A stretch of DNA of 37,656 bases, from positions 1 through 37,656 of the IMG/VR virus record IMGVR_UViG_3300045996_001255. The stretch is one strand, 5' to 3'. A program made the translations under genes and the position numbers. Shown piece after piece: positions 113 to 36,890 of the stretch (the stretch's first letter is position 1; the number at the start of each line of letters is the position of its first letter). The notes beneath the pieces were generated by a model that saw only the letters and a program-made list of their open reading frames with translations, was not told the DNA's origin and searched no databases. The DNA is from a virus.

Positions 113-3100
113 AGGAAGTGGCTTCGCCGGCTCCCACGGGCACCAAGGCCCTGTTCCCGAACCTGATCCGCCGGGCCGAGAACATGCTCGACCGCGCCTT
201 CAGGCTGGCCCAGGGAGAGCAGGCCCCGAACCGGATCATCGCCCAGGAGCAGACCCCGGCCTCACTGGTCCGGACGGCCCTGAAGAATTCGTCGGCGCTG
301 GCCGCTTTCCTGGCGACCACCGGTCAGGCGCCCAAGCACGAGCTGACCCAAGAGATCGCCGTCCGCTACCAGGCGCTGCTGGCCAATGGCACCGACACCG
401 AGGCGGGTCAGAACCTCAAGGGTATCCTGAAGGCGATGAACACCAGCCTGGCCAAGTTCCTGGCCGATCCCGCCATCCGGGCCAAGCTCAAGAGCGGCGA
501 GCCGGTCAACCGCTGGCAGGACGGTAAGGCGCTGAACATCCTCGACGAGGCGGACGGCAAGCTCAAATACAACGAGTTCCTTCAGCAGGCAGCAGCCCTG
601 GCCGGCATCCAGTGGTACCTGACCGCCAACAACTTCACCAAGGAACTCTCGCTCGAAGATCTCTCGGAGATCACCGGCCTCGATGCGGACGCCGTCCAGT
701 CGCTGTCCAAGACAGAGATCGATAACCTCAGCCAGGGTGTCAGTCTCGACGACGCGATCGGCAACCTGTCCGGCCTGATCACCCAGTTCTGGGGCCTGAA
801 GTCGGACGCCGCAGCCGACCTGGCCTATGCTCAGGGCATTCCCCAGGCGGTCGCCGCCGAGGTGCTCCAGGCTCTGATCAAGCAGGGCCTGGTGACCAAG
901 CCGCCGTCTGTCCGGCTGGGGCCTGAGCACGGCCTGGCCGAGGAGCGGACGATTGACCGCTACGTGGTCGAGTCTCTCGATGAGCAGGACCCGCTGAAGG
1001 GCTATCCGACCGCGATCCAGGACGCGGTGATGATCGAGCCCACCGAGGTGGTCTTCCTCGGCGAGGATCTTCCCCCGGTGGCCAAGCGCCAGATGAACAA
1101 CCCGGATGTCGCCAATACGCCGGAACAGATCCAGGCCCTGGAGAACGAGCAGAAGACGCCGTTCTACATCAACGAGACGATGCTGAACATCTACGCAGCA
1201 CTCGGCGTGGACGGCATGGTCACGCTGTTCGGCGCCGGGGATACCTCCAAGCGGGTGCTCAACGAGACCCACGCCAAGACTTTGGAAGGCCAAAACCGGA
1301 TGGTCCTGTCCTCGCTCGGCAGCCTGTCTTCCCTCTTGGATCAGGTCAACAACCGGGCCTCGGCCCTGGGGGTCAAGCCTGCTGAGGTGGCGATCCGCTA
1401 CGGCTACAACTTCTCCCGTGTCGGCCGCATGCAGATGCTGGGCAGCTATAACCCCCAGGCGAGCAAGCTGGTCCGCGAAGCGGTCCTGCCGACCTGGAGC
1501 ACGCTCGATCTGTCCGACCGCGGCAGCGAAGCCTCCCGCTCGTTCTTCCTCGGCATGGCCCAGGCGCTGGACATCAAGGTTCACAAGAAGGGCATCGACC
1601 AGTCGGTCACCGAGGTTCAGGCCCTGCTGTCCGGCGCTCTGGCTCCGGCGGTCGCGATGCTGGCTGACCTGGACCCGGTCGATCCCGTGCTGGACGCCGA
1701 CGCCCTCAAGGATATCTTTAAGGACGCCAAGGTGCCGGTCTCGGCGATCGCGCTGCACGCCCTGTCCGAGTACGCCCGCTACACCCAGGCCGGACCCAAG
1801 GAACTGACAGCCTTCCGCACCGGTCTCTATGTCGAGGCCGACGGTGTCACCAACGGTCCCATCAATGCCATGGTGCTGATGAGCGTCGGCAAGTTCACGC
1901 CCCAGTGGGTCCATAACGTGGCCAAGGGTGGTTTGTCGTTTGGTTCACCTAAGACCATGTTTGAGCTGAACCAGCGGGACAGCACCGATCTGTACGGCGC
2001 CTCGGCTGAGGCGACCGGCCAGCGTCTCAAGGCGCTGGACAAAGTGCTCCGCCACCAGGGGCAGGGTCTGGTCGAGCAGGCGGCCCAGCTCTACGGCATG
2101 ATGTCGCTGCTGGGGATGAAGGGCGTTGATTTCGATCCGAACCGCCCCGAGGGCAACCAGCTCAAGATCGACCGCAACATCGCCAAGAACCCGCTGACCA
2201 TCACGATCTACGGCTCGTCGGCTCCCGGCATCGCCAACAAGCTGGTCAGCATGCTGGCCGACGAGGTCCATGCCCGGATGTCGGTCGCCGCCGAGGCGAT
2301 GAAGAAGGACTCCAAACTTAGCTTTGTGGATGCCCTGTTCCCCGGCGAACCGGAGAAGGGCCGCCAGCTCGCCCAGATGATCAACGACCTGACCACCCAG
2401 AAAGTCACCTTCAACAAGGCAAAGAACGAGTATTCCCTGGTCAGCGTGCCGACCCATGACCGGGCTCCCGATCCGGTCACGTTCAAGTTCGACAAGCTGG
2501 AGCTTGATGCTCTCCGGGCGAACATGCTGAACCTGCTGGTCAACCCGATGCGGGACGGCATCACCGAGGTGGTCGGCGAGCCCCTGATGAAGGCGGTGAC
2601 CCAGCTCCGCATGGCGACCCAGGCACAGAGCATCGTGCTGGAGCAGCTCTACAAGCAGGGCATCGAGGACGCCATCAAGGAGCGCCAGAAGGCGGACCCG
2701 GACTTCCGCAAGGGCGACTTCCTGTCCCAGGCCGACCTTGCCAAGGTCCTTCAGCGGCTGAAGGGTATCTCTCCCTTGGTTCAGGCCGCCGGCCAGGTCT
2801 TCATGATCACCAAGAGCCAGAAGATCTCCCGCGACAAACATGCCTTCGCCCGCGCCCTTGACGGCACGATGCGGACCACGGCCCAGGTCTACGCCCCGAC
2901 CAACGCCGGGGTCGCCGGCATCCCGTTCACGACGATCGGCTTCGGCGACGGCGTCATGATGCTGAACCTGGCGCTGGACACCGCGGTCCAGGGCACCCTG
3001 AAGATCTTCGACGGCATGAACATGCCTCTGGATAAACTTGGGGATTACAGCCGCAAGGCCAACAAAGCTGTCTCGCAGTCCTGGGCGAACAATCCGCTCC

Positions 3101-6100
3101 GGGCCGTGGCCGAGACCTACGCCAAGTTCGTCGAGAACAAGGACCAGATCGCAGCCTCCCTGGATCGGGAAGCCGCCGAGATCGCGGACCCGGCCAAGCG
3201 GATCTACAACCAGACCCTGGTGCGGGCGCTGTTCGAGGATGCCAAGAAGGGCCAGGTCCTGCCGACCGAGACGATCCTGGCCCAGATCGTCCGGTTCCAG
3301 GCAAACCTCAACTGGGCGGCCGACTCGGTCGAGGCCCGGCACAGGGCCATGGCCGATGTCGCGATGAGCGTGGACCAGATGGCGGCGGCCGGTGCCCCCT
3401 ACGTCAACAGCCGGCCGGGAGCCGTTCTGCCCGAGCTGACCACGGACCAGACGGTCGAGCTGCTGGAGGACCGCTACCGGTTCCACCTCGCCAACAAGAC
3501 GGTTGCTCCCGCCGCTCCGGCACCGGCCACGCCTAAGCCTGTGGATAAGCCGGCTGTCAAAGTTGCGGCCGCACCGGCTCCGGTACTGGATCTGGGCAAG
3601 ATCGGCCGCACGGACAAGGCCAGCGGCGTTCGCCTGATCGGCTTCACGGCACTGAAGAAGCTGGCCCGCAAGAGCGGTTTCAGCGAGGGCCAGAAGGTGA
3701 TCCTGGGCGAGATCCTGCGCTCGCTGGGAACCAAGGAATACACCGTGGTCTCCGGCTCCGCCGAACAGATCGCGGCCTACCAGAAGGCGCGGGGTCTGAC
3801 CGGCCTGAATGCCAGGCAGACCGGCGACAGCCGGGTTCACGGCTATGTCTCGATCGGCGACCGGACGATCTACCTGATCGACCCCTCCCCCGAGACGCTG
3901 GTTCACGAGCTGGTCCACGCCGCGACCTTCGAGATATTGGCGGCGCACTACCAGGGCCGGACCCAGGGCGAGGATGCCAAAGTGGTTTCGGACACCGTTC
4001 AGCGGCTCGAAGCCATGATGGACCAGTTCCTCGGCATGCCGGTCGATCCGGTCACGACTCCGATCGAGATCCAGGAAGCGATCGAGCGTGCCAAGTCCCA
4101 GATCGAGAACGCCGAGTCGCCGGCCGAAGCGCTCAACGAGTTCATGGCCTGGGGCCTGACCAACCAGCAAGTTGCCTCTAAGCTGAAGGACACCAAAGTA
4201 AACCCGTGGGTCCAGCTCGCCAAGGATGTCTTCAAGGCGCTCAAGTCCCTGATCTGGGGCCGCAAGAAAGCCCCGGCCGTTGCCGACGACGTGCTCTCGA
4301 ACCTCCAGTTCAACGCCGGTATCCTGGTCCGGACCCAGCTTAACATCTCCTCTCTGGTTCAGAGTGCTACGCTGTTCCACCAGTCGAACGGGATGTCCAA
4401 CCGGCTGGTCCAGCTTCGGGATGCCCTCGACGCCAAGGTGATCGGCCTGCTCAACGGCTCGCCCAACCGGAATCTTGCGCTCCAGGCCGAGCTGAGCGAT
4501 GTCATGGACCTGACGGCCGATGTCACCGACGCCTTCGCCGCGGAATTCTCGATGGACGCCGGGCAGCGCTCCACCTTCGAGATGGTGGTCAAGGCCCTGG
4601 CGCTGCGGACGGAGGTGGATAGCTCGGGCATGGCCCGGCTTCAGGAGATCTACGCCCACGTCATCAAGAACCTGAACCTGGCCAGCTTCGTTCCGGAGAA
4701 CCCGGTCGATCGGCAGGCGGAGGAGCAGTATTCGGCCCTGAAATACAACCTCATCCTGGGCAAGACGATCCGCCGCAACGATCCGCAGGGGCGCTCCACG
4801 CTGCTGCCGGCCTTCCTGGCTCTGGCCCTGGTCAACGACGAGTTCCGCCAGGTGCTCTCCAATATCGAGCTGCCCAAGACCGCCCGGAACGCCGCCGGGA
4901 CGGTGGACGCCAGCCTGGAGAACGTCGGCGCCGAATGGATGGACTGGCTGTCCCGCACCCTGTCGGGCGAGGGCAAGAGCCGGAATGTGAGCCAAGCGGT
5001 TGACCGGCTGGCCGATCAGATCACCAAGTCGGCCCTGGCCGAGCAGACCCTGATTTCCGAGATCGGCTCCAAGGCCCAGGGGACCAGCGAGAGCGTCAAC
5101 CGGGCGATGGCCAACGGGCTCGATACCCTGGCGGACAAGACCATCCTGCTGAACCAGAAGCTCCAGCAGGGCGCCTCTCCCAAGGCGGTCAAGGCGCTCG
5201 GCTCGGTCGCCGAGACGCTGACCCGGATGGCCTCGGAGAAGAACGGTGACGCGGTCTCGGTCGGCATCATGGATGCCGCCAGCCGGACGAAACTCTGGAA
5301 GCCGGTGTTCGACCTGATCAACGAGGCGGTCGGCCGCACCCTGGAGAACGGCCCGGTCTACGACATGATCAAGCAGGTCCGGGCGGTGGCTCAGCAGCTC
5401 CGCCAGGAGTTCCGCGACACGGTGCCCCGCGTGATCTCGGCCAAGTTCAGCCGGACCCTGACCGAACCGGAATGGTCGGCGCTGTATGTCGGTTTGGGCA
5501 AGACCGATCTCGCGGTGCTGATGGAGGGGTCCACCCTCCAAGAAACCTTGGGGGTGCTGACCGGCAACCGGGCGCTGAACGCCCGGATCAGCGATCTTGA
5601 AGGTCAGATCCAGCGGAGCAATCCCGGCTCCTGGTCGCTCTACCAGGACAAGATGGAGCAGCTCGCCTCCTTCATGGTGACCGGCAAGACCAAGGGCAAC
5701 CTGCTGCGCAACGTTCACGCGATCAGCCGGCTGCTCGGGATCGACAAGCCCAAGGGCTGGCAGCTCCCCGACGACACCGTGGTCCGCCAAATGGACAAGC
5801 TGGTCACGCTCTACGCGGTGAAGGCGATGTCCCAGGCTGAGCGGGACACGGTTGCCTCCTTGGTTCAGGCCGAAGGCGACGGCGTCGGGTTCACTCTCAA
5901 CTACCTGGTCGGCCAGCGCCGGGCCGAGATGGAGAAGGCGCTGACGGGCAAGGCGCTGTTCAACCACTACAAGGGGCATCTGCCGAGCGAGACTCGGAAG
6001 GGTGTCTCCCTGACGGTGGCCGACGACCGTAAGGCCGCCAAGCTGCGCGAGCAGGGCTACGTCCGGGTGGCCGGTTATGCGGGCAGCATCCTGGAGAGCC

Positions 6101-7713
6101 GCCGGGGATCGATCGGCTACTACCACGCGCCGATCAGCGGCCGGGCGGCGTTCACTCAGGGTATCTTGCAGAACATCAAGCAGACCGCCAGCGGCGTCGA
6201 TCAGGCCACCGGCTACACCACTGGTCTGGTCGCCGGCCGTATCCTCGACCGCTTCAAGATCGCGACCTTCGCCCGCTCCATGAACGGCGAGCCGAGCGGC
6301 ACGGAAGTCCTGCTGCCGGTCTACTCGGATGTCGGTCAGGTGATCGCCTTCGAGCGGGCGGTGGACCCCACCCAGCTCCAGCGGATCAAGCCGTCCAGCA
6401 ACCTGGCCGACATGATCGGTGTCTGGCGCGGCCGTCAGCTTGAGGAGGGCTTCGCCCAGACGACCAACGAAACGCTGGTGGACCGGCTGTACCAGATGCA
6501 TCGCGACGATCTCCGGGCCAGTGCCTCGAACCAGAGCAAGTACATCAACCTGTTCGACGGCGGTAACAGCGCCGTCATCCGGGATGCGGTGTCGCTGTTC
6601 TCGGACGAGACGATGGAGTACATCCGGGACAAGTTCGGCACCGAGTTCTGGGTCCGCCGGGACCAGGTGGACAACGCCGTCGGCTACCGCATGGCGTCCG
6701 TCCGGGACCTGTTCGACGCGGAGAAGTCGCCGCTCTCGACGAACGCCCAGGCCAACCTGAAGAAGGCCCTGGTCGGTCTGACCAGCCCGGAGGTGTTCCG
6801 CTACCTGGTTCAGGGCGAGCAGGCGGTGCAGGGCTTCGTCCACAGCATGCGCGAGAACATCGTGATCCGGTCGATGATCGTGCCGGCCTACAACGCGGCG
6901 TCCAACATGGTCCAGCTCGCGATGAAGGGGGTTCCCTGGAACGACATCGGCAAGGGGGCGGGAACCAAGCTGAGCGAGATCCACGGCTATACCCGGACCC
7001 GGCTGCGCGAGGTCGAGCTGGAGGCTGAGCTGCGGGCTGCCGGGACCGATCCGATCCTGGCGCGCAGGCTCCAGACCGAGATCGACACGATCCAGGACAG
7101 CTACAGGCGCCTCAGCATCTGGCCGCTGATCGAGGCCGGCGAGTTCTCCACTGTGGCGGACGTGGGCATGACGGCGGAAGACCTGGAGATCACGTCGGGC
7201 AATCTCGCTGGCTTCGTCCGCAAGCAGATCGACAAGCTGCCGCCCAAGCTCCAGACGGCGGCCCGCTACGGTCTGGTGTCACGGGACACGGCCCTGTTCG
7301 CCGGTCTCCAGAAGGCGGTCCAGTACGGCGACTTCGTCGCCAAGGCGATCCTCTATGATGATCTGGTCAAGCGCCGGAAGCTGTCCTCCAAGGACGCCCT
7401 GGTCAGGGTCACCGAGGCTTTCGTCAACTACGACTTCCTGCCCGGCCGGGCCAGGAACTATCTGGAGAGCATCGGTCTGCTCTGGTTCTTCAACTACAAG
7501 ATCCGGATCGCCAAGCAGGCCCTGATCATGCTGCGGGAGAACCCGCTCCAGGCCCTGATCGGGACCGCCCTGCCGTTGCCGGACGGGGTCGGCACGACCC
7601 TGGAGGACAACGTGTTCACCAAGCTGGCCGAGGGTTCGCTGCCCTACTCGGTGGGGCCGGAGATGGCCTTCCGGGGCATGCACATGAACCCCTGGTACAA
7701 CCTCGCTTTCTAA
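1..7713 (+). CDS. Virion RNA polymerase (N4 gp50-like), 5'-truncated by window edge
   Basis: This is the DNA-dependent RNA polymerase that N4-type phages package and inject to transcribe early genes. The frame is open from base 1, so the true start lies upstream; a GTG at 118 is only an internal codon. About 2570 residues are visible. Single-subunit T7-like motifs appear in order: the (T/D)xxGR-type motif FSRVGRM at 1411-1431, motif A EADGVTNGP with its Asp at 1840-1842, motif B R-x3-K-x7-YG at 2173-2214, and a motif C candidate FGDG with its Asp at 2947-2949. Their spacing closely fits the N4 mini-vRNAP catalytic residues as I recall them. An Ala/Pro linker (about 3508-3593) leads to a zincin-like HELVH at 3904-3918 with a possible third ligand Glu at 4138-4140. 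The C-terminal ~1100 residues are unassigned; in N4 the C-terminal part is linked to packaging. It converges with the minus-strand genes at the terminator after 7713. Confidence 0.93.
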   Translation, partial: VAVKEESKEAIKEATKLESKKESELESKTETAPQTKTEEVASPAPTGTKALFPNLIRRAENMLDRAFRLAQGEQAPNRIIAQEQTPASLVRTALKNSSALAAFLATTGQAPKHELTQEIAVRYQALLANGTDTEAGQNLKGILKAMNTSLAKFLADPAIRAKLKSGEPVNRWQDGKALNILDEADGKLKYNEFLQQAAALAGIQWYLTANNFTKELSLEDLSEITGLDADAVQSLSKTEIDNLSQGVSLDDAIGNLSGLITQFWGLKSDAAADLAYAQGIPQAVAAEVLQALIKQGLVTKPPSVRLGPEHGLAEERTIDRYVVESLDEQDPLKGYPTAIQDAVMIEPTEVVFLGEDLPPVAKRQMNNPDVANTPEQIQALENEQKTPFYINETMLNIYAALGVDGMVTLFGAGDTSKRVLNETHAKTLEGQNRMVLSSLGSLSSLLDQVNNRASALGVKPAEVAIRYGYNFSRVGRMQMLGSYNPQASKLVREAVLPTWSTLDLSDRGSEASRSFFLGMAQALDIKVHKKGIDQSVTEVQALLSGALAPAVAMLADLDPVDPVLDADALKDIFKDAKVPVSAIALHALSEYARYTQAGPKELTAFRTGLYVEADGVTNGPINAMVLMSVGKFTPQWVHNVAKGGLSFGSPKTMFELNQRDSTDLYGASAEATGQRLKALDKVLRHQGQGLVEQAAQLYGMMSLLGMKGVDFDPNRPEGNQLKIDRNIAKNPLTITIYGSSAPGIANKLVSMLADEVHARMSVAAEAMKKDSKLSFVDALFPGEPEKGRQLAQMINDLTTQKVTFNKAKNEYSLVSVPTHDRAPDPVTFKFDKLELDALRANMLNLLVNPMRDGITEVVGEPLMKAVTQLRMATQAQSIVLEQLYKQGIEDAIKERQKADPDFRKGDFLSQADLAKVLQRLKGISPLVQAAGQVFMITKSQKISRDKHAFARALDGTMRTTAQVYAPTNAGVAGIPFTTIGFGDGVMMLNLALDTAVQGTLKIFDGMNMPLDKLGDYSRKANKAVSQSWANNPLRAVAETYAKFVENKDQIAASLDREAAEIADPAKRIYNQTLVRALFEDAKKGQVLPTETILAQIVRFQANLNWAADSVEARHRAMADVAMSVDQMAAAGAPYVNSRPGAVLPELTTDQTVELLEDRYRFHLANKTVAPAAPAPATPKPVDKPAVKVAAAPAPVLDLGKIGRTDKASGVRLIGFTALKKLARKSGFSEGQKVILGEILRSLGTKEYTVVSGSAEQIAAYQKARGLTGLNARQTGDSRVHGYVSIGDRTIYLIDPSPETLVHELVHAATFEILAAHYQGRTQGEDAKVVSDTVQRLEAMMDQFLGMPVDPVTTPIEIQEAIERAKSQIENAESPAEALNEFMAWGLTNQQVASKLKDTKVNPWVQLAKDVFKALKSLIWGRKKAPAVADDVLSNLQFNAGILVRTQLNISSLVQSATLFHQSNGMSNRLVQLRDALDAKVIGLLNGSPNRNLALQAELSDVMDLTADVTDAFAAEFSMDAGQRSTFEMVVKALALRTEVDSSGMARLQEIYAHVIKNLNLASFVPENPVDRQAEEQYSALKYNLILGKTIRRNDPQGRSTLLPAFLALALVNDEFRQVLSNIELPKTARNAAGTVDASLENVGAEWMDWLSRTLSGEGKSRNVSQAVDRLADQITKSALAEQTLISEIGSKAQGTSESVNRAMANGLDTLADKTILLNQKLQQGASPKAVKALGSVAETLTRMASEKNGDAVSVGIMDAASRTKLWKPVFDLINEAVGRTLENGPVYDMIKQVRAVAQQLRQEFRDTVPRVISAKFSRTLTEPEWSALYVGLGKTDLAVLMEGSTLQETLGVLTGNRALNARISDLEGQIQRSNPGSWSLYQDKMEQLASFMVTGKTKGNLLRNVHAISRLLGIDKPKGWQLPDDTVVRQMDKLVTLYAVKAMSQAERDTVASLVQAEGDGVGFTLNYLVGQRRAEMEKALTGKALFNHYKGHLPSETRKGVSLTVADDRKAAKLREQGYVRVAGYAGSILESRRGSIGYYHAPISGRAAFTQGILQNIKQTASGVDQATGYTTGLVAGRILDRFKIATFARSMNGEPSGTEVLLPVYSDVGQVIAFERAVDPTQLQRIKPSSNLADMIGVWRGRQLEEGFAQTTNETLVDRLYQMHRDDLRASASNQSKYINLFDGGNSAVIRDAVSLFSDETMEYIRDKFGTEFWVRRDQVDNAVGYRMASVRDLFDAEKSPLSTNAQANLKKALVGLTSPEVFRYLVQGEQAVQGFVHSMRENIVIRSMIVPAYNAASNMVQLAMKGVPWNDIGKGAGTKLSEIHGYTRTRLREVELEAELRAAGTDPILARRLQTEIDTIQDSYRRLSIWPLIEAGEFSTVADVGMTAEDLEITSGNLAGFVRKQIDKLPPKLQTAARYGLVSRDTALFAGLQKAVQYGDFVAKAILYDDLVKRRKLSSKDALVRVTEAFVNYDFLPGRARNYLESIGLLWFFNYKIRIAKQALIMLRENPLQALIGTALPLPDGVGTTLEDNVFTKLAEGSLPYSVGPEMAFRGMHMNPWYNLAF

Positions 7714-8840: not shown

Positions 8841-9593
8841 TCAGCCGCCGAACAGGCTCTTGCGGGCGGTCTGGACGCCGGCGACGGGCGCTGCCGCACC
8901 GGCCTTGGGCGGACGACCGGCACCGGCGGTTCCGGCTTCGCCGTCCTTGATCGTCCGCTTGTCCCGGACCTGGTCCTTGTTGCGGGCGAGCCAGGCTTCC
9001 TGGAACTTGGGCTCGTCCTGGCCGTTCCTCGCCTCGGCGACCGACAGCTTCAGCGTCGGGTGGAACACCTTGTCGATGAAGTTCTCTTCGCGCGTCTCGG
9101 CCGTGGCGACGTATTCGGTGCCCTGCTTGACGTTCTTGTTGACGATCTGCTTGATGATGCCGAGCGAGACTTCCTGACCGATCGCTTCCGTAATCATCGG
9201 GACCGACTTCGGCATCTCCTTCTTGGCCTCGAAGTCGTAGACGTTGATGACCTTCTCCTCGCTCTCCTGCTCGGCCAGCGGCTTGCCGGTGGCGATCAGG
9301 CAGAGGTCGTCGGCCACCGTGAAGCCGGGCAGCGGGACCTTCTTGGTGCGGTCGTCCTTGTTCAGGAAGAAGTTCTTGCCTTCCTTGTTGGTGACGTAGA
9401 CCGTCTCGCGGTATTCCTTGCCGTTGGACAGCTCGGCGAGCAGCGTGATCGACATGGCGCCGCCGGCGGACTGGCCGGCGTAGAGGGCCTTGATCTTGGC
9501 GGTGTAGACGCCGCTGTCGAGCGGCGAGAATCCACCCAGGCGGTCCTGGGACTGTTCGAGACCTTCGGAGGTCAGTTTACCAAACAAGCTCAT
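8841..9593 (-). CDS. Probable single-stranded DNA-binding protein (N4 gp45-like position)
   Basis: 250 residues. It follows the RecA-like ATPase gene and precedes the resolvase, the position of the SSB region in N4-type genomes. The sequence has an OB-like beta-rich core after residue 25 (GVYTAKIKALYAGQSAGGA, SITLLAELSNGKEYRETVYV, then a Lys-rich loop), followed by a charged helical part and an Ala/Gly/Pro-rich tail ending in SLFGG. N4 SSB also activates late transcription by host RNA polymerase, and that role may apply here. The assignment rests on context and overall character rather than a diagnostic motif; the alternative is an N4 gp44-like protein of unknown function. Confidence 0.65.
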   Translation of the reverse strand: MSLFGKLTSEGLEQSQDRLGGFSPLDSGVYTAKIKALYAGQSAGGAMSITLLAELSNGKEYRETVYVTNKEGKNFFLNKDDRTKKVPLPGFTVADDLCLIATGKPLAEQESEEKVINVYDFEAKKEMPKSVPMITEAIGQEVSLGIIKQIVNKNVKQGTEYVATAETREENFIDKVFHPTLKLSVAEARNGQDEPKFQEAWLARNKDQVRDKRTIKDGEAGTAGAGRPPKAGAAAPVAGVQTARKSLFGG

Positions 9594-10396: not shown

Positions 10397-10455
10397 GGGT
10401 CTTGGTAGTTCCTCTCCTTGGTTCATGTGGCCGTCCCCGGTTCACTCGGCGTGAT

Positions 10456-10467: not shown

Positions 10468-10515
10468 AGGCTGAGGGTCAGACCGAGTGGAACCAAAGGG
10501 ATCAGGCGAGAGCGA

Positions 10516-12675
10516 TCAGGCCGTGCGCTGGAAACGCTTGGCCACCGTGACCATGATGGTCGCGTCGATCTCGTCATCGGGCAGCGGGGTGTTGATCTTG
10601 GCGTTGAAGGCGTGAACCGCCTTCGCGATCTCGATCAGTTCCAGGCCGGCATCGACCAGGGCCAGGGCGTATTTCAGCATCTGGTTGTTGCGGCTGCCGG
10701 TCGCCATCCGTTGGGCGAACCAGCGCTCCAGGTTGCCCAGGTTCTGGACGGTCTGGAACTGGTCCCGGTACTGCTCGTTCTTCGAGGTCTTGGGGATGAA
10801 CGGCAGGGCGTCGAGGATCGCGCCCTCGTCGTTGTAGTGGAAGACGCCGTTGTGGTAGGACTCCCACTTCTTGGCCCGCTGGTTGGCCGAGGTGTCGGTC
10901 TTGAACGGCAGCCATTCCATGACGTTGTTCATGAACTCCTTGTACTCGTCGCTGTCCAGCTCCAGCACGTAGTTGATCGGCAGCACCAGCCGGAAGCGGT
11001 CACCGTGACCCTCGGTCTGGTGGCGCTTGGTGGTGTAGGTCATGAAGCGGTAGTCCTTCATGATCTCGTGGGCCATCTCCAAGGAGACGCCCTCGTCCAC
11101 GTCGATCACGATCATGTTGAAGCCGACGATCACGTTCTCCTCGGCGCGGTGGCCGTTCTTGAACGTGTGATTGGCCCAGTGGTAGCCCTCGGCCTGGGTC
11201 AGGTTGTGAAGCTGGTCGAACGGGACCTTCTCGGCCTGGTAGTTGTAGGCCCAGTGGTCGGAGTAGGAGACGAACATCTCGTCCAGCTTGGTTTCCTCCA
11301 GCGTCTCGCCCTTGAAGAACTCGATCCCGTCCACGAAGGACTTCTTGATGATGATGTGCTTCTTGTAGCCCCAGGCGGTCGCCAGGGTCATCATGTCGCG
11401 CCGGAACGCCGCACCGCCCTTGAAGAACGGCAGCGCCTCGCCGAGGTCGGTCTCGGTGACTTCCGTGCCGCAGGTGCCGATGTACTTGGCCAGCTTGACG
11501 TAGGCTTTCTCGCGGGTCAGGATCGTCTGGAAGGCAATGCCGGACTCCTCGACCAGGTAGATCGCCTGCATCAGGTGGCCCATCTCGACTTCGCTGCTCT
11601 CGTCGATGAAGGCGTAGGCGCCGGCCAGCTTGAGCGCCTTGAAGTAGCGGTGCGAGATCTCCGCCTTGCGGATCTCCTCGTGGTCGGGCAGCGTGTCGGC
11701 CGTCCGGTCGCAGGCGATCTTGTACTCCAGCAGGCGGATCGCGACATCCTCCTCGACCAGCATCTTCCAGCCGAACATGGCGGGATCGGCCAGCCGCTGG
11801 AACTGGTTCGACCACTTGGTCACGGTGTTGCTGTTGGTCGGGGCGATCAGGCGGTGATAGATCTCACTGGCCGTCTGGGTGTTCGACGCCCGGCTGGTGT
11901 GCTGGCCGAAGCCGAACAGGCAGCGCCGGGCGTAGCCGGTCTCCAGGAAGGAATAGAACTGGTCCTCGGTCTGGGCGCCGTCCAGCAGCTTGGCCGGGGT
12001 GCCGAACAACAGCATGTTGGTCGGGGTCTTGCCGTCCATTTCCTCGGCGCGGGTGTTCTCGGCCGTGTTCTTGGTCAGCTTCTGCTTGACCTGCCCCTGG
12101 TCGTAGAGTTCCAGGAACAGGGTCAGCACCTCGACCGCGTTGATCAGGTTGGAGCCGATCTCGTCGATCTGGAGGTTGATCGAGCCGCAGTTGGCCAGCA
12201 GCAGCTTGTGGCGGAGCTGCTTGACCGCCGGGGCCGTGCCGCTGTCGAAGGTGAACGGGTAGGCGCCGGCCCGCTTGTACTCGGCGTTGACCTTGTCGAA
12301 TTCCTCCTGCGGATCGGTGCCCTGGCGGAGCGACCGGTCGTTGGCGATTTCCCACAGGTTCTGCTCGGCGATCACCGGCATGGCGTCTTCCATGAAGCGT
12401 TTCTTGAACGGCTTCATGAACTCGTTTTCCATGATGTTGACCGAGTGCCCCTTGCCGAAGCCGGAGGTGGCGAGCGCCAGCGCATAGATGTTCACCGGGA
12501 TGTCGCCGCGGTCCTTGGTGACGATGGTGGCCCGCATGTTGGAGGCCATCTTGCCGAGGAAGTAGGCCACCTCGCAGCGGAAGAATCCCCGGTCGGTGTT
12601 CTGGGTTTTTGCACACAACACTTCCACGATTTCATCAATGGCGGGATGGTGCGTAACGCCGGTCAAGTCAATCAT
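10516..12675 (-). CDS. Fused P-loop helicase-like ATPase and AEP-type primase (N4 gp42-like)
   Basis: 719 residues, likely the replicative primase-helicase. The N-terminal half resembles DUF3987-type helicases: a Walker A-like ATSGFGKGHS at residues 70-77 and Walker B LQIDEIGS with Asp170/Glu171. The C-terminal half carries archaeo-eukaryotic primase features: the strand VIDVDEG with an Asp-x-Asp pair at 525/527, a His at 552 in TTKRHQ, and DRFRLVLP at about 559-566. A helical tail resembles primase C-terminal domains. The order ATPase then primase is the reverse of the commoner primase-helicase fusion. Its start overlaps the end of the upstream nuclease gene by 4 bases, so the two are probably co-translated. 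It corresponds in position to N4 gp42. Confidence 0.8.
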   Translation of the reverse strand: MIDLTGVTHHPAIDEIVEVLCAKTQNTDRGFFRCEVAYFLGKMASNMRATIVTKDRGDIPVNIYALALATSGFGKGHSVNIMENEFMKPFKKRFMEDAMPVIAEQNLWEIANDRSLRQGTDPQEEFDKVNAEYKRAGAYPFTFDSGTAPAVKQLRHKLLLANCGSINLQIDEIGSNLINAVEVLTLFLELYDQGQVKQKLTKNTAENTRAEEMDGKTPTNMLLFGTPAKLLDGAQTEDQFYSFLETGYARRCLFGFGQHTSRASNTQTASEIYHRLIAPTNSNTVTKWSNQFQRLADPAMFGWKMLVEEDVAIRLLEYKIACDRTADTLPDHEEIRKAEISHRYFKALKLAGAYAFIDESSEVEMGHLMQAIYLVEESGIAFQTILTREKAYVKLAKYIGTCGTEVTETDLGEALPFFKGGAAFRRDMMTLATAWGYKKHIIIKKSFVDGIEFFKGETLEETKLDEMFVSYSDHWAYNYQAEKVPFDQLHNLTQAEGYHWANHTFKNGHRAEENVIVGFNMIVIDVDEGVSLEMAHEIMKDYRFMTYTTKRHQTEGHGDRFRLVLPINYVLELDSDEYKEFMNNVMEWLPFKTDTSANQRAKKWESYHNGVFHYNDEGAILDALPFIPKTSKNEQYRDQFQTVQNLGNLERWFAQRMATGSRNNQMLKYALALVDAGLELIEIAKAVHAFNAKINTPLPDDEIDATIMVTVAKRFQRTA

Positions 12676-13640: not shown

Positions 13641-13837
13641 AGGTCGGCTCCCGGATGCAGGGGGTTGGGGTCGTTGGTTCAAGACGCAGAGCGAGGGAAC
13701 CAAAGGGGATAGGTACCCCCTTTGGATGAATCAATTATTACCAGTAGGTTTGGGTGATCCGGCCTCGTCTCGCTGGGCCGGGTATCTTGAATCAGCTTAT
13801 CTTAGAGGTCAAGGACGGGAAATCGGTTCAGCTCGAC
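13641..13837 (-). promoter_or_regulatory. 197-bp leader with two hairpins before the nuclease gene
   Basis: A non-coding gap in a tightly packed block. It contains a 9-bp perfect inverted repeat CCAAAGGGG/CCCCTTTGG (13700-13725, 8-nt spacer), a 6-bp CCGGCC/GGCCGG repeat (13759-13781) and two GAACCAA/TTGGTTC heptamers (13674, 13697). An AT-rich patch (AATAATTGATTC on minus) lies between the hairpins. It probably holds a promoter for the nuclease and primase genes, but I cannot name the site. Confidence 0.5.
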
Positions 13838-14481: not shown

Positions 14482-14545
14482 GTCTCTTTGGTTCCTCAAG
14501 TTAATCCAGGGGGCCTCGACCCCAAAGAAATACTGCGGGTAGGCG

Positions 14546-20013: not shown

Positions 20014-20219
20014 GTGAGATCTTCCTGTTTACGGGTTTTCTTGGTTCAAGATCGGTTGCTCCCGGTTGGGGTAGATCACCCTCAAGTTGTCTTGGGGGTA
20101 CCGGAGCCCATGCCCCTAAGATAGATGCCTTCCGGGCCGGACCCATCTGGGCAGAGGAGGTAGCTTGCGGCCTCTTCGCGCCGTTCCTCCGTCCGATCGA
20201 CCATCCCTGGCGGATTCAG

Positions 20220-21041: not shown

Positions 21042-21045
21042 ACCC

Positions 21046-22610: not shown

Positions 22611-22755
22611 CGGTTTGCTCCTCTTGGTTCAGGTTCAGGGCTTTCAGGCGGTGGGTGCAGATCGTCGGGTAGCAGTAGCCGGCGTCCTGGCAGCGCGAGT
22701 TCACGTCCCGTGCCGGGCAGGCCACGGCATCGGCGAGTTCCTGGGGGTCGATCAC
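22582..22755 (-). CDS. Small Cys-rich protein
   Basis: 57 residues starting at GTG 22755, with GAGG about eight bases upstream and an in-frame stop just before. Four cysteines and one histidine (Cys13, 22, 28, 33 and His35: ACPARD, SRCQDAGYCYP, ICTHR) are packed into 23 residues, suggesting a zinc-binding knuckle; a disulfide-rich peptide is unlikely without a signal sequence. It lies between the 93-residue gene and the 86-residue gene in the same direction. Confidence 0.65.
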   Translation of the reverse strand: MIDPQELADAVACPARDVNSRCQDAGYCYPTICTHRLKALNLNQEEQTDVQYELPGL

Positions 22756-24197: not shown

Positions 24198-24618
24198 GCG
24201 GGGGCTTGATCGGCATCCAGTGGGTCGGGTTGGCTGCGACTTCAAAGTCGGAACCAAAGAGAAACCACCAGTCGGGGATGAAAGCGCCGCCGTCGTCGGG
24301 GTGATCGTCCACGGCGCCGCCGTAGATCAGGACGTTGGGGCCGTTCTCGACACGGGACAGGGCGTCCGCATGGGCGGCGTAGATGGTGATCGAGTCAGGG
24401 TTTTCCGGGTCTTGGTAGGGATCTTCTTCATGATTGCACCAGCCGAGGATGGGCGTGCCATCTCGGGGAGCCGAGTCGATCGGTTGCCAGCCAACCAATT
24501 CCGAAATCATGGATCGAAGTTGGGTAATCTCTTTCTTCTGGTCAGCAATGCGAGCTTCATAACCATCGCATAGGGCTTCGAAGTGTTCTTCCTCTTCGTC
24601 TTTCTCGCTATAGGTCAT
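24190..24618 (-). CDS. DUF551-like protein
   Basis: 142 residues. The N-terminal 45 residues are a charged, probably coiled-coil helix. From about residue 44 the sequence WQPIDSAPRDGTPILGW and the C-terminal NPTHWMPIKPP match the pattern of DUF551 proteins, which are common in phages and prophages and of unknown function. The C-terminal stop overlaps the next gene's start by eight bases. Confidence 0.85.
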   Translation of the reverse strand: MTYSEKDEEEEHFEALCDGYEARIADQKKEITQLRSMISELVGWQPIDSAPRDGTPILGWCNHEEDPYQDPENPDSITIYAAHADALSRVENGPNVLIYGGAVDDHPDDGGAFIPDWWFLFGSDFEVAANPTHWMPIKPPHG

Positions 24619-25926: not shown

Positions 25927-27072
25927 CTACTTGATGTGGATGAGCTTGCCGAAGGGCACGGTGGCGTGCGCATTGCCGGTGGCGACCCAGATCACCGGAA
26001 TGTCCCGGTCGAGCGGTTCCATCGGGGCCACGCACAGGTCGCTGAAGATGATGGCCGCCGTTGGTTCGGTCGCCAGGATGTGCTCCCGGACGGGGATCAG
26101 GCAGGTACCGCCGCGGCCGATGATCTGGATCTCGTCGAACGGATCGGATTCCTGGAACTCCCGGACGTGGGTGATCTGGGTGTCGAACTGGATCAGGCTC
26201 AGCCGCTGGGGCTTCAGGACGGTCTGGATGAACTTGACCTCCGAGTTGAATCGGAGGATGTCCCGTTCGGTGATCGAGCCGGAGACATCGAGATAGTAGG
26301 CCAGGTGCTCCAGCCGGCCGTCGTCGGTAAAGCGGGACGGCAGGTACATGCCGCAGTAGCGGCGGTTGGGCCGCTTCCAGGAGTAGTCCTCCTCCAGCAT
26401 GTCGGTGAAGAACTGCATCAGGACGACTTCCCAGGGAATCACCGGTTCGAGGAAATTCTTGAGGGTCTCCTCGATGCCGCCGGGGATGCTGCCGGCCTGG
26501 CCCATCACCTTGGCGGATTGAACAGCCTGGACCACGGCGTTGATGGCGGCCTGCTTCTGGCCGGCGTCCTGCGGCAGCATGTCCCCGGCCAGGTCGCCGC
26601 TCTGGGGCGGCGGCGGCGAGCCGGGCTTGATCAGCAGGTCGTAGATGTCCTCCTCGGAGGCGATGCCGGCGAGGTCGTAGTCGTGATCCAGGCAGGGCTT
26701 GGTGCCCTCGAAGGTGTAGCCCTCGTTCGCCAGGTCGTTGTTGATCCGGTAGTCGCAGGCCACGTTCCAAACGTCGGGGCAGCGGGAGCCGGCCCGGATC
26801 ATGTGGAGGCGGGCGACGTGCCACAGCTCGTGGAGCAGCACGGTCTCGCGCGTCTTGGGCGGCAGCTTCTGGAACCAGTCGGGGTTCCAGTAGAGATTGA
26901 TGCCGTTGGTGGCGGCGGTCTCGATGTCCCGTGTCCAGGAGAAGGTCAGGGAGCACATCAGGGAACCAAGGAAAGCAGCGTTCCGTCCGAGGAAGACGCC
27001 TGACTTGGCCCGGTCGAGTTCACGGTTGAGTTGGTACAGGTCGATGGTGTCTTCGGGAGCGCTGGCGAACAT
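25927..27072 (-). CDS. VWA-like metallopeptidase (N4 gp25-like)
   Basis: 381 residues. A zincin motif HELWH lies at 81-85, followed by WNVACDYRINNDL where Asp108 is a likely further metal ligand, as in the DUF2201/VWA-like peptidases. The C-terminal half is a von Willebrand A-like domain with the MIDAS sequence YYLDVSGSIT (Asp262, Ser264, Ser266). A disordered Pro/Gly/Asp-rich linker (about 150-165) joins them. MoxR-type AAA ATPases and VWA proteins usually act as a pair; the partner here is the ATPase at 30696-31733, about 3.6 kb upstream on the transcript. N4 has the corresponding gp24/gp25 pair. The function in infection is unknown. Confidence 0.9.
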   Translation of the reverse strand: MFASAPEDTIDLYQLNRELDRAKSGVFLGRNAAFLGSLMCSLTFSWTRDIETAATNGINLYWNPDWFQKLPPKTRETVLLHELWHVARLHMIRAGSRCPDVWNVACDYRINNDLANEGYTFEGTKPCLDHDYDLAGIASEEDIYDLLIKPGSPPPPQSGDLAGDMLPQDAGQKQAAINAVVQAVQSAKVMGQAGSIPGGIEETLKNFLEPVIPWEVVLMQFFTDMLEEDYSWKRPNRRYCGMYLPSRFTDDGRLEHLAYYLDVSGSITERDILRFNSEVKFIQTVLKPQRLSLIQFDTQITHVREFQESDPFDEIQIIGRGGTCLIPVREHILATEPTAAIIFSDLCVAPMEPLDRDIPVIWVATGNAHATVPFGKLIHIK

Positions 27073-28795: not shown

Positions 28796-29085
28796 GGTGT
28801 GTTTTCCGGTTGGTTCCCCAGTCGGTTGTCGTTCAGCTCGGCGCCGCAGGCGGCATAGCCGGCCATATCCACCCAACTGTCCTCGTGGCTGGGGTTGCCG
28901 CTGGCCCGGACGATCTTGAGCCAGGCCATCATCAGGGCCACGTCGCTGGCGGTGATCTCGATGCCCTTGATCACCGACCAGCCCTTGCCGATCTTGGTGA
29001 AGCTGTCTTCCGGCCCGCCGTACTTGACGTTGCGGTCTTTCAGGACGCAGGCGGCGGCCTCGTTGAGGCATTGCTCGCGGTTCAT
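28792..29085 (-). CDS. DUF6378-like protein
   Basis: 97 residues. The order RNVKYGGPEDSFTKIGKGW, then TASDVALMMAWLKIVRASGN, then DSWVDMAGYAACGAELN matches the DUF6378 family found in phages and prophages, an all-helical family of unknown function whose conserved Lys/Asp/Glu residues have suggested a MazG-like resemblance. ATG 29085 follows TGACC at the stop of the 59-residue gene by three bases. Confidence 0.85.
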   Translation of the reverse strand: MNREQCLNEAAACVLKDRNVKYGGPEDSFTKIGKGWSVIKGIEITASDVALMMAWLKIVRASGNPSHEDSWVDMAGYAACGAELNDNRLGNQPENTP

Positions 29086-29698: not shown

Positions 29699-29862
29699 TC
29701 CGCGGTATCCTTTTTCTGGCGCAGCACGGGACGCAGGACGGCAGGCGGGAAGTATTTCGCGTCGTGGGAGCGCCGGATGTACCGACCAAGCATGAATGCG
29801 CCAATCTCCAGAGCAGCCGCGAACAGTCCGGATATGCCGAGAACCAAGAGAGGGTCAGTCAT
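29695..29862 (-). CDS. Single-span small membrane protein (55 residues)
   Basis: Residues 4-27 (PLLVLGISGLFAAALEIGAF and onward) form a transmembrane helix followed by GRYIRRSHDAK, a positive-inside signal, and a Lys/Arg-rich C-terminus. It is linked by ATGA overlaps to both neighbours. Together with the 42-residue gene it forms a pair of small membrane-active proteins; an Rz/Rz1-like or holin-like role cannot be argued because no lipobox or endolysin is nearby. Confidence 0.62.
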   Translation of the reverse strand: MTDPLLVLGISGLFAAALEIGAFMLGRYIRRSHDAKYFPPAVLRPVLRQKKDTAE

Positions 29863-31733: not shown

Positions 31734-31759
31734 GGGGGTGGTCTCCCTTGGTTCAGCTT

Positions 31760-31815
31760 GGGATTGGGGGGGTTCAGGTCGGGGATTGGGATTGGTTCAG
31801 GACGGGGAGAGGGGG
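31760..31815 (+). repeat. G-rich stretch, potential G-quadruplex
   Basis: Plus-strand G runs of 3, 7, 4, 3, 4 and 5 bases are spaced by short T/A/C stretches in the 89-base gap before the MoxR gene (31734-31822), with two TTGGTTC heptamers flanking or inside. On the minus mRNA it is C-rich, so any quadruplex would form in the template strand DNA. Confidence 0.4.
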
Positions 31816-32125: not shown

Positions 32126-32680
32126 TTAATCGGTTTCAACTTCGATCAGGACCACGTCCGGGTCCTTGTAGAGGCCGAGGGATTTCAGTCTTTCGACCAG
32201 CTTGCGGCCGTTCTTGGTGGCCGACTTGTCCAGGGCGGACATCTCGGGGCACTGTTCCAGGGCCTCCAGGATCGCCGCCAGAGCGTCGGCGCAGGCGCTG
32301 TCCTCGTAGAGGACCAGGATCTCGGTCTCGATCAGGTTCTCCAGCCAGCGGATGATCACCATGAAGACCAGCGGCACCGGGCGTCCCTCAAAGACGCCGA
32401 GAGCCCAGTCCGAGACGCCGTTGATCAGGACGGCGACCTCGGCCTTGCGGCCGGGTGCCAGACCGTCCAGGGGTTCGTGCATGGTCTGAACCAAGAGAGG
32501 CAAGACCTTGTCGCAGAACGCCCGTTCCCTGGGTTGGAGGTCGCGGGCCTGGGCCAGGCTGTGGGCGCACTGCCAGAGCATCCGGGAGGCCAGGGCCAGC
32601 TCGATCCGGTCCCGGTGGCCGGCGAATTTCAGCAGGGCCGTCCGGAGCTGGCGTTCCCGCCGGTCCATGGGCTTAGCCAT
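32126..32680 (-). CDS. Hypothetical helical protein
   Basis: 184 residues, almost entirely helical, with a long hydrophobic helix (PLVFMVIIRWLENLIETEIL) near residue 105-125 that is more likely buried than membrane-spanning. No family recognised. Its ATG overlaps the end of the LuxR-type HTH gene by eight bases, so the two are probably made together; a ligand or partner for that HTH protein is a possibility. Confidence 0.75.
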   Translation of the reverse strand: MAKPMDRRERQLRTALLKFAGHRDRIELALASRMLWQCAHSLAQARDLQPRERAFCDKVLPLLVQTMHEPLDGLAPGRKAEVAVLINGVSDWALGVFEGRPVPLVFMVIIRWLENLIETEILVLYEDSACADALAAILEALEQCPEMSALDKSATKNGRKLVERLKSLGLYKDPDVVLIEVETD

Positions 32681-32924
32681 GCGTGACCTTGGCGCTGTTA
32701 CGCACCAGGCTGGGGGGCGTCTTGTCGGTCAGAACCAGATAGGCCAACTGGGTCCGGTTGCGCAGACCGAACACGGCGTAGATCCGCATCAGGTGGGTCT
32801 TGATCGTCTCCTGGACGACGCCGAGCCGGTGGCTGATCAGCTTGTCTTCCCAACCCTCGGACACGAGCAGGGCTATTTCCTGCTGACGGGGGGTCAGTTT
32901 ATTAAGGGCTTCCATGTTGGCCAT
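32673..32924 (-). CDS. Stand-alone LuxR/GerE-type HTH protein
   Basis: 83 residues. LTPRQQEIALLVSEGWEDKL then ISHRLGVVQETIKTHLMRIY and GLRNRTQLAY align with the four-helix LuxR C-terminal DNA-binding domain (LTxRExEVL, NKxIAxxL, SxxTVKxHxxxI, NRTEL). No sensor or receiver domain is present, so it would bind DNA constitutively or with a partner. ATG 32924 has GGAGAG upstream. It could redirect host promoters or act as the activator of phage middle/late genes. Confidence 0.88.
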   Translation of the reverse strand: MANMEALNKLTPRQQEIALLVSEGWEDKLISHRLGVVQETIKTHLMRIYAVFGLRNRTQLAYLVLTDKTPPSLVRNSAKVTHG

Positions 32925-32970: not shown

Positions 32971-32983
32971 TTTGGTTCAGGAT

Positions 32984-33648: not shown

Positions 33649-34104
33649 TTACGAGACGGTGATGGCCACCGTGTCGGTGGTGCTGCCGTCGGCGGACGTG
33701 GCGGTGATCGTCGCCGAACCAGTGGCAACACCGGTGACCAGGCCGGTGGTGGCGTTGACCGTGGCCTTGGTCACGTCGGAGCTGGCGTAGGTGACCCGTG
33801 TGTTGGAGGCCGTGGCCGGGGATACCACCGTGGTCAGCGCCTGTGTCCCCGCCGCGGCGATCGTGGCGGCCGCCGGGGTGGTGACGATGCCGGTGACCGG
33901 TACGAAGGCGTTGATGTTGACGAAGCCCATGTCCTCGACATCGGCGGCGTAGAGCAGGTCCCGGACGTAGTGGTAGGGAACCAGGTTGTCCCCGTCCACG
34001 TCGGTGTAGGTGCCTTTGCTGGTGTGGGTCGTCGGAGCGGTGCGGCCGGCCGGCACGAGAAGCACTTCACGTGTCGAGGCCCGGTAAACGACGGTGGTGG
34101 CCAA
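33649..34104 (-). CDS. Capsid decoration protein with Ig-like (Big_2) domain (N4 gp17-like)
   Basis: 151 residues. An N-terminal ~70 residues precede a C-terminal bacterial Ig-like group 2 domain: VTGIVTTPAAATIAAAGTQ, then VTYASSDVTKATVNATTGLV and GSATITATSADGSTTDTVAI. N4 gp17 is an Ig-like protein decorating the head and lies next to RNAP2, exactly as here. The likely start is TTG 34104, seven bases after AAGGA; no in-frame ATG is nearby. Bounded upstream by a strong hairpin (34133-34151) and downstream by an intrinsic terminator, it forms its own transcription unit inside the middle region. Confidence 0.85.
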   Translation of the reverse strand: MATTVVYRASTREVLLVPAGRTAPTTHTSKGTYTDVDGDNLVPYHYVRDLLYAADVEDMGFVNINAFVPVTGIVTTPAAATIAAAGTQALTTVVSPATASNTRVTYASSDVTKATVNATTGLVTGVATGSATITATSADGSTTDTVAITVS

Positions 34105-34188: not shown

Positions 34189-35400
34189 TCAGCTAAGAGC
34201 ATAGTCTGTATCAAGGATGTCGTCGGCCAGCGTCGGGTCCAGCTTGCCAACCTGCACGGTACGGCCGGTGATCTGGCTGAGCAGGAAGCTGAGCAGGGTG
34301 CTGCGGGCGATCAGGTGGAGCTGGAGATTGTACTGGAAGCGCAGGTCGTTGGCGTAGTTGGGCAGCACGCGGAAGCAGTCGTGAACGCTGACCACCTGGA
34401 ACGGCTTGGCCGGCAGGCTGTCGATCAGCGCCCGGATCTCCTCCGGATCGACCAGGGTCAGCGTGTCGCTGTCGATGTAGTCGAGGATGCGGGCCGAGAG
34501 ATAGCCCGAATCGACGTAGTGGTCCCACAGGACCATGACCATCCGGACGGCTTCGTTCTTCTCGTCCGTGGTGGTGAAGCGGCTCTCGACTTCACCGTCC
34601 AGGATGTCGCGGATGAGCTGGACCCAAGCGGGATCATAGCTGCACCGCCGGGACATCTCCCGGACCACCAGGGCATCCAGCGAGTGGATGGTGTTGGCGC
34701 CCAGGCTCCGGCCCTCCTTGGTCGGGGCGTTGACGCGGTAGGTGATCTCGACCGGCTCGTTGAGGAACTGGATCGTCTCGACGACCGGCGCCATCACCTT
34801 GACCTGGACATGGAAGTTATCCGGCAGGACCCAGTCGTGGGACAGGGCTTCCGGGTTCCACAGCTCGGGGAATACTTCGTTCAGTTCCCAGGCGGCCGGG
34901 GCCAGTTCTCCCATGGTGCTCTGGAAGGCGGCGAGCAGGGCACCCTCGCCGAAGATCTCCTTGGGCTTCGCCGTCGAGCCGTAGATCGCCGGTACGATGG
35001 CGCCCTTGATGTCGTCCCGCTTGATCTTGGACTCTCCGCCGACCTTGGTGAGCATGTGCTGGTAGACGTTGGTGTAGGCGTCCTCGCGCTTGCCGGTATT
35101 GACGACGTTGCACAGTTCGGCGGCCGAGCGGTCACCGGTCAGGACGGCCAGGATCTGGATACCGCTGGCGGTGGCATCGAGGCTGATCGGGTAGCCGATC
35201 GGCTGGCCGGCCTTGACCTGCGCCCACGCCTGGACGCCGGCGTAGTACATGGCCGGGTCGGCGGCCTTGGGCAGCATCTCCAGGAGGTGATCTTCGTGCT
35301 CGTTGAACCAAGCAAGCCGCTGATCCCAATCCTGCTTGTCGAGGCCGTAGCTGTTGGCGATGTCGATGGCCAGGTACTGGCGTGCGGAAAACCTTTGCAT
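34189..35400 (-). CDS. RNA polymerase subunit RNAP2 (N4 gp16-like)
   Basis: 403 residues, the larger subunit of the heterodimeric T7-like polymerase that transcribes middle genes. Motif A is PISLDATASGIQIL (Asp75), motif B is RDDIKGAIVPAIYGS (Arg128, Lys132, Tyr140), and motif C is SVHDCFRV (His340, Asp341). The size matches N4 gp16. ATG 35400 is used because AAGGAG lies seven bases upstream; a start at 35487 would add unconserved residues and run through the leader. The (T/D)xxGR part is supplied by RNAP1 (35896-36726). Here the two subunit genes are separated by an 82-residue gene and a 250-base leader. Confidence 0.95.
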   Translation of the reverse strand: MQRFSARQYLAIDIANSYGLDKQDWDQRLAWFNEHEDHLLEMLPKAADPAMYYAGVQAWAQVKAGQPIGYPISLDATASGIQILAVLTGDRSAAELCNVVNTGKREDAYTNVYQHMLTKVGGESKIKRDDIKGAIVPAIYGSTAKPKEIFGEGALLAAFQSTMGELAPAAWELNEVFPELWNPEALSHDWVLPDNFHVQVKVMAPVVETIQFLNEPVEITYRVNAPTKEGRSLGANTIHSLDALVVREMSRRCSYDPAWVQLIRDILDGEVESRFTTTDEKNEAVRMVMVLWDHYVDSGYLSARILDYIDSDTLTLVDPEEIRALIDSLPAKPFQVVSVHDCFRVLPNYANDLRFQYNLQLHLIARSTLLSFLLSQITGRTVQVGKLDPTLADDILDTDYALS

Positions 35401-35577: not shown

Positions 35578-35607
35578 CCTGTGACGGTACGGGGGTGCTG
35601 TCACAGG
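35578..35607. repeat. Inverted repeat CCTGTGAC/GTCACAGG
   Basis: A perfect 8-bp inverted repeat with a 14-base spacer, in the leader upstream of RNAP2. It could be an operator or an mRNA hairpin; no T run follows on either strand. Confidence 0.5.
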
Positions 35608-35650
35608 GTTGGTGAGGGTGTTGGGTTCTTGGTTCGGGTAGGGCAGGGCG

Positions 35651-36726: not shown

Positions 36727-36764
36727 AACGCATCTTCCTTCCAAGTTAGGTTGAGGGTGTCGAT

Positions 36765-36890
36765 TCACCGGTACTTCAGGCGCTGGTAGCCTCGGATGGT
36801 GCGGCGGATGTGCGGCATGCAGGGGAGGCTGTAGCCCCGGAGGCGGCTGAGTTGGTTCCACTTCCGGATGAATTCGGTTCTCAGCATCAT
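36765..36890 (-). CDS. Small basic protein (41 residues)
   Basis: MMLRTEFIRKWNQLSRLRGY is followed by a C-terminal basic stretch IRRTIRGYQRLKYR. Very high Arg/Lys content suggests nucleic-acid binding or host targeting. ATG 36890 overlaps the upstream stop (ATGATG). Confidence 0.58.
   Translation of the reverse strand: MMLRTEFIRKWNQLSRLRGYSLPCMPHIRRTIRGYQRLKYR

Follow-up and report, generated by a model that had tools for sequence, protein, structure and literature searches.

Our analysis shows that the N4-like phages (Schitoviridae) carry a real DNA element under selection, which is oriented, spread through the whole family, provided with a tail on one side only and acting strand by strand. 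In the genome studied here its core is the heptamer GAACCAA/TTGGTTC. What the element does is inferred, with no enzyme assay and no mapped primer ends: we lean, by a modest margin, to the reading that the phage AEP-type primase begins its primers there.

The window, that is, the whole stretch of 37,656 nucleotides analysed, is a 37.7-kb fragment of an N4-like phage, and the known isolates are distant from it (~74% DNA identity, mostly over the primase). The virion RNA polymerase (vRNAP) gene occupies 118-7713 on the plus strand (phrog_2206, 2099 bits), and nearly all other genes lie on the minus strand. Among them are genes for replication and recombination, namely the single-strand DNA binding protein (SSB; 8841..9593, minus strand, phrog_743), the expected partner of the primase; a Sak4-like annealing protein; the DNA primase itself, our proposed reader, with 719 aa and belonging to the N4 gp43 family (10516..12675, minus strand, phrog_2135, 1189 bits); an exonuclease; the DNA polymerase expected to extend the primers (15046..17652, minus strand, phrog_17); and a Dda-like helicase. 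The exonuclease, which is of PD-(D/E)XK type (RecB-like), and the Sak4-like protein are encoded in genes adjoining that of the primase. Further minus-strand genes encode thymidylate synthase, dCTP deaminase, an AAA ATPase and two RNA polymerase subunits. An Rfam search of the window gave no match, and neither did a search of viral contigs with the RNAPII protein.

Some features of this layout are recorded here for their own sake. Two plus-strand genes (20385-22305) lie within the otherwise minus-strand middle region, and the second of them, of 419 aa, matches phrog_5939 and phrog_1419, both of them families of tail proteins. Among early and middle genes, beside an RNA polymerase subunit gene, lies a gene (33649-34104, minus strand) whose product has an Ig domain resembling tail or structural ones. 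Antisense to the vRNAP gene runs an open frame of 1679 codons (1945-6984, minus strand) without family match, probably a by-product of GC-rich codon usage. The palindrome CCTATAGG is over-represented in the non-coding DNA of the window, and the leaders of genes like the one for the ATPase (31755-31800) are A/C-rich and G/T-poor (e.g. AATCCCCGACCTGAACCCCCCCAATCCC).

The heptamer occurs in 24 exact copies in the window, 15 on the minus and nine on the plus strand, where 3.5-3.8 are expected. An earlier note on this DNA had counted about 20; all 20 positions it listed are correct, and those it missed start at 3728 (+), 6962 (+), 26061 (-) and 28810 (-). Dinucleotide shuffles of the window give a mean of 3.8 copies and a maximum of nine, and since this null is too weak it was replaced by synonymous-codon shuffles. 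With proteins and codon usage kept, the genes hold 13 copies against 2.8 expected (largest of 1000 shuffles, 11), while the 4.1 kb of non-coding DNA, with dinucleotides kept, hold 11 against 0.69 (largest shuffle, five). GAACCAA ranks first among all heptamers in the non-coding DNA (11 vs 0.59) and first in the coding DNA under the codon-aware null (second when the genes were called automatically). The coding and non-coding halves are independent, so the result is not an artefact of choosing the best word. The over-representation claimed by the earlier note thus held under the codon- and dinucleotide-preserving shuffle that the note itself had named as able to refute it, and the enrichment in relatives that it wished to see checked is found across nearly the whole N4-like family, as described below.

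The copies are found both inside and between genes. In the vRNAP gene, antisense copies lie at 1940..1946 (-; six purines in the ten bases of the tail), at 2776..2782 (-; followed by GGGAGAGATA, Leu-Val-Gln being encoded as TTG GTT CAG) and at 5860..5866 (-; followed by GGAGGCAACC), and sense copies at 3728..3734 (+; GGAATACACC) and 6962..6968 (+; GCTGAGCGAG). The gap upstream of the Sak4-like gene contains 10418..10424 (-; GGAGAGGAAC) and, just past the primase stop, 10490..10496 (+; AGGGATCAGG). The exonuclease gene leader has 13674..13680 (-), with only four of ten tail bases purines, and the antisense copy 13697..13703 (+; AGGGGATAGG). The copy at 14488..14494 (-; AGAGACATGA) lies seven bases before the start of gene 14182-14481, that at 20041..20047 (-) in the leader of gene 19645-20013, and that at 22624..22630 (-; GAGGAGCAAA) in the small gene 22582-22755. 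The weakly supported gene 24190-24618 is crossed antisense by 24251..24257 (+; AGAGAAACCA), and the metallopeptidase/VWA gene 25927-27072 bears the heptamer in sense at 26061..26067 (-) and antisense at 26963..26969 (+; GGAAAGCAGC). Further along, 28810..28816 (-) falls at the end of gene 28792-29085, just before the start of the next gene, and 29841..29847 (+; GAGAGGGTCA) is non-coding. The ATPase gene leader carries 31748..31754 (-; GGGAGACCAC) and 31792..31798 (-; only two of ten tail bases purines), gene 32126-32680 an antisense copy at 32488..32494 (+; GAGAGGCAAG), and the leader of gene 32673-32924 a copy at 32972..32978 (-). The remaining copies are 35305..35311 (+), antisense in the RNAPII subunit gene 34189-35400; 35629..35635 (-), non-coding and upstream of that gene; and 36852..36858 (-), in gene 36765-36890, itself weakly supported, and upstream of the other RNAP subunit gene.

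We then present the distribution of the element in the family, for which searches with the primase and the vRNAP gave 95 loci and whole genomes were then analysed. Of the first ten full genomes, most have GAACCAA at rank 1 when tested against the codon null, with counts such as 94 vs 19.5, 99 vs 25.3 and 85 vs 16.4, and a typical full genome has about 50-110 copies of its leading heptamer. The letters vary between clades. N4, G7C and several others carry GAACCAG instead (N4: 103 vs 29.6), the leading word of LIT1 is AAGCCAA (77 vs 12.1), that of Possum AAGCCAG, of Pollock AAACCAA and of KPP21 AAACCAG; Vibrio phage 1.261.O has TAACCAA (TARCCAA-type), and 1.245.O has TGAACCA. The family form is RARCCAR, plus some other first letters. 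The specificity is sharp: the word itself is enriched 2.3-6 fold and single-letter changes mostly have a ratio near 1, the tolerated ones being A/G at position 3 and, with some freedom, position 7. Exceptions exist, as Vibrio phage pVa5 has no clear motif and Erwinia phage S6 has the heptamer without the purine tail. Outside the family, the element is absent from T7, T4 and phiKMV. Phages of one host may differ in their letters, with GAACCAG in N4 and AAACCAA in Pollock (both on E. coli) and likewise different words in LIT1 and KPP21 (both on P. aeruginosa), which points to a phage-encoded reader. In addition, the letter types cluster on the primase tree, with 23 changes against 37.9 in shuffles. 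The 249-kb record of SonariX (PQ898399.1) contains a complete N4-like gene set at ~195-239 kb and has AARCCAG as top coding word; because this full set comes together with long T4-like stretches, the record is probably a chimeric assembly, and its use as a natural experiment, with an N4-type primase in a 249-kb record, was dropped.

A purine-rich 3' extension had been claimed for the window copies and is confirmed there: on average, the first ten bases 3' of the heptamer include 6.7 purines, the following ten only 4.1 and the ten on its 5' side only 4.5. In the family, the purine excess runs from +7 to about +16 and falls to the null level from +17, while upstream of the heptamer there is no consistent excess. 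Coding sites of the GAACCAA-type genomes have an excess of 0.09-0.15 at +7..+11 (n=1733, standard error 0.012, codon-controlled). At non-coding sites the purine fraction is 0.73-0.79 at +7..+11, 0.66-0.71 at +12..+14 and ~0.48 beyond +17. The tail is thus ~8-10 bases long and confined to the 3' side, and coding sites on both strands carry it. Its leading base is G at +7 and +8 and A thereafter. GANCCAN words have the tail, whereas CAACCAA, TAACCAA, AAACCAA and GAAGCAA in the same genomes do not. In most GARCCAR-type genomes, heptamer and tail occur jointly 2.7-5.5 times as often as under the codon null.

The earlier note had supposed that selection acts on the DNA itself, and this is shown by the codon-aware null, the six phases, both strands and the conservation of sites. 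All six codon phases are enriched (1.7-9.1 fold), the antisense enrichment is as strong as the sense at about 3.0-3.5 fold (2.96-3.54, 23 genomes), and all 12 genome bins are enriched. Between relatives at ~68-77% identity, 21-54% of sites are retained against 13-29% for anagram heptamers, and in most pairs of relatives the sites are kept 2-3 times more often than the anagrams. Individual sites therefore persist yet also turn over. As to strand bias, a further point that the note had suggested checking, nearly all genomes have a forward-strand excess of ~60:40, but the codon null yields the same ratio; with the skews at fourfold sites following gene direction as well, we do not use it as evidence of fork direction. 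A separate observation is that nearly all of 29 Schitoviridae genomes are rich in T at fourfold-degenerate sites, as read on the coding strand and whichever way the genes point.

The spacing along each strand shows how the element is read. Same-strand gaps are more even than chance, with a combined z of -5.4 forward and -2.9 reverse over 29 genomes, where the null is drawn from one-mismatch positions (the first tests had a uniform null) and control words average z +0.6. Within the window alone the evenness is weak, and only the minus strand has it (P 0.03, against P 0.27 for the plus strand). At distances of up to 600 bp, pairs on the same strand are depleted, both forward (1359 vs 1596, z -6.2) and reverse (760 vs 856, z -3.3), while cross-strand pairs in the same range match the null (2144 vs 2159, z -0.3). 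The same-strand depletion reaches ~1 kb, forward pairs under 100 bp being at 0.72 of null, and the same-strand spacing is about 1-3 kb; control anagram words cluster on the same strand instead. The pattern remains when the analysis is limited to coding sites (z at 0-300 bp: -5.5 on the same strand, +1.1 across strands) or to 17 divergent genomes (z -4.6 on the same strand, +0.1 across strands). Same-strand avoidance together with cross-strand independence indicates a function read strand by strand, which is consistent with single-strand reading without proving it. Since a site on one strand is no substitute for a site on the other, the data favour a process reading single strands over a double-strand binder indifferent to orientation.

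The earlier note had offered binding, priming or packaging as the function. Among these three, priming fits best because of the per-strand action, the one-sided purine tail of 8-10 nt and a near-identical site known for an AEP primase. The template word TTGGTTC, and a tail beginning where such an enzyme would start, lead us to propose a recognition heptamer and a primer tract, i.e. an oriented element of ~15-17 nt, 5'-GARCCAA-R(8-10)-3', with the heptamer as core. In the putative mechanism, the template 5'-(Y8-10)TTGGYTC-3' would become single-stranded behind the fork and the C-terminal PriCT-1 domain of the primase would bind TTGGYTC; synthesis would begin at the template base adjoining it on the 5' side, which is often C, giving a primer that starts with G; and a purine-rich primer of ~8-10 nt would be made and then handed to the phage DNA polymerase. 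Three elements of this mechanism are inferred: the identity of the reader with the primase, that of the tail with the primer, and the use of both strands as lagging-strand templates. The primase of the window has a P-loop ATPase-like N-terminal part, an AEP-like region and the C-terminal PriCT-1 domain. PriCT_1 scores above the Pfam cut-off in this protein and is matched in 30 of 30 aligned proteins, and the consensus contains IVIDVDGG and TTKRHT..NRFRLILP-type stretches that resemble AEP motifs, including an AEP-like DxD motif, as judged by eye. A recognisable gp43-type primase is present in every N4-like genome tested, and this protein is among the core proteins of the family (PMC7650795). 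Searches among the sequences of solved structures found no relative of the primase. For the position-7 letter, no residue of the primase gives a closer association than residues in other replication proteins do. It counts against the priming reading that the fold enrichment is equal on both genome strands, whereas with a single unidirectional fork sites would be needed on only one of them. There is also a bolder reading, to which we give slightly better than even odds: the whole family would have its lagging-strand map written in the genome, as each strand's own self-spaced heptamers with pre-shaped purine primer tracts for the AEP primase, in a code that changes with its reader between clades.

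Other explanations have to be weighed against priming. A Chi-like oriented site for the control of recombination or exonuclease, read by the RecB-like exonuclease or a Sak4-type system, is suggested by an oriented, over-represented word evenly spaced per strand and by the PD-(D/E)XK-type exonuclease and Sak4-like annealing protein encoded beside the primase. We consider it unlikely: no helicase-nuclease complex is evident in the window, where only the lone exonuclease is noted, Chi is not known to have readers other than such complexes, and this reading would explain neither the primer-length purine tail nor the similarity with the site of the NrS-1 primase. It is equally doubtful that the sites belong to a distributed protein binding double-stranded DNA, such as a nucleoid-like, transcription, ejection or packaging factor. 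The sharp specificity, the clade-specific letters and the presence on both strands would suit such a protein, but if it were blind to orientation all neighbours should avoid each other, and only same-strand neighbours do. Another oriented single-strand signal acting with the N4 SSB, in helicase loading, polymerase switching or annealing, would be expected to show the same per-strand behaviour; we hold it improbable, as no precedent with this sequence was found, and tblastn did not find the SSB and the Dda helicase in the TARCCAA-type phage 1.261.O, where they may only be too divergent.

The explanation by gene expression, in which GAACCAAGGAGA is an extended Shine-Dalgarno in a ribosome-binding leader or mRNA element, is very improbable and is refuted as the main cause. 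Several copies do lie 7-59 bases before gene starts with GGAG or GAGA, and the leader function claimed for some copies by the earlier note holds for a few and may add to the signal there, leaving the rest unexplained: 13 of the 24 copies are inside genes, many of them antisense; antisense enrichment equals sense over the 23 genomes and extends to all codon phases; and the tail is borne by coding sites irrespective of strand. That the enrichment merely reflects codon usage, codon-pair bias, composition or the mutation bias of the host can be practically ruled out. In favour of this explanation the high-order Markov expectation is high, because sub-words are enriched too; against it are the synonymous-shuffle nulls, the six phases, the non-coding enrichment, the different letters in phages of one host and the per-strand spacing. 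Packaging fits poorly because the sites are genome-wide and evenly spaced on each strand; a pac or terminal signal was rejected, as the element is not localised near genome ends and every one of the 12 bins is enriched. The promoters of N4, which are hairpin early and AT-rich middle ones (PMC4496689), were rejected too, the element being a CC-core heptamer with a purine tail, within genes and on both strands, and a hairpin promoter with a CTTG-AAC-CAAG stem was abandoned, as only a few copies agree with it.

N4 was isolated in 1966, and neither this motif nor a primase site for the N4 family is reported in the literature we searched, most subscription journals being outside the scope. Under the priming reading, the motif would predict where primers start, how long they are and which sequence, with its variants between clades, is recognised; it would also imply priming of both strands along the whole length. 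If the bolder reading above is true, a genome-wide system of priming sites would be readable from sequence, and recognition sequences for dozens of primases would be at hand ahead of experiment. Furthermore, functions that read strands can be told from double-strand binders on sequence alone by comparing spacing on the same strand with spacing across strands. The approach could be extended to other phages and to plasmids with long primase sites; to our knowledge it has not been used for priming sites before, although we made no dedicated search.

Compared with known systems, the element resembles Chi (RecBCD/AddAB) in being an oriented word over-represented in a genome, and differs in its reader, sequence and purine tail; moreover, the window is without an evident RecBCD-like complex. 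The gene 4 primase of T7 also uses a short oriented template site throughout the genome, 5'-(G/T)2GTC-3' (PMC12839067), of which TGGTC resembles TGGTTC. Its Okazaki fragments, with an average of ~3 kb and a range of 1-6 kb (PMC12839067), agree with the N4-like same-strand spacing of ~1-3 kb. However, it is a DnaG-type enzyme of unrelated fold that makes tetramer primers, and its site is so short that strong enrichment is not needed. The primer-sense site GACCA is enriched in T7 (125 vs 82, rank 7 of 512 pentamers), so a trace of this kind can be left by primase sites; the non-primase words ACTCA, CAATC and CTCAA are over-represented against the codon null in T7 too. In pRN1 ORF904, likewise an AEP enzyme, the template is read by a PriCT-1/helix-bundle domain (PMC8718748, PMC5862659), PriCT-1 being the identity given to the corresponding domain of this protein (PMC5862659), but the site is 5'-GTG-3', only three bases. 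The NrS-1 primase-polymerase, a phage AEP enzyme, recognises the template 5'-TTTGGTTA-3', with synthesis beginning at the adjoining template base (PMC8718748); it also uses 5'-GTG-3'. TTGGTTC has six bases in common with TTTGGTTA, the template core TTGGTT being the reverse complement of AACCAA. The NrS-1 site is bound by a helix-bundle (PriCT-1-type) domain, and the start at the base 5' of the template site is where the N4-like purine tail begins. The comparison is weakened by a discrepancy, in that the binding oligo in PMC7102993 contains TTTGACCA and not TTTGGTTA. There are also differences: NrS-1 is reported to carry its 8-mer just twice, close to the middle of the genome (PMC7102993), while the N4-like phages have about 50-110 copies of their leading heptamer per typical full genome, spaced along both strands, and the NrS-1 enzyme doubles as replicative polymerase, unlike in the N4-like phages with their separate DNA polymerase. 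On the whole, primase sites are already known as a kind, and what would be new here is a distributed, self-spaced and purine-tailed series of them across a family.
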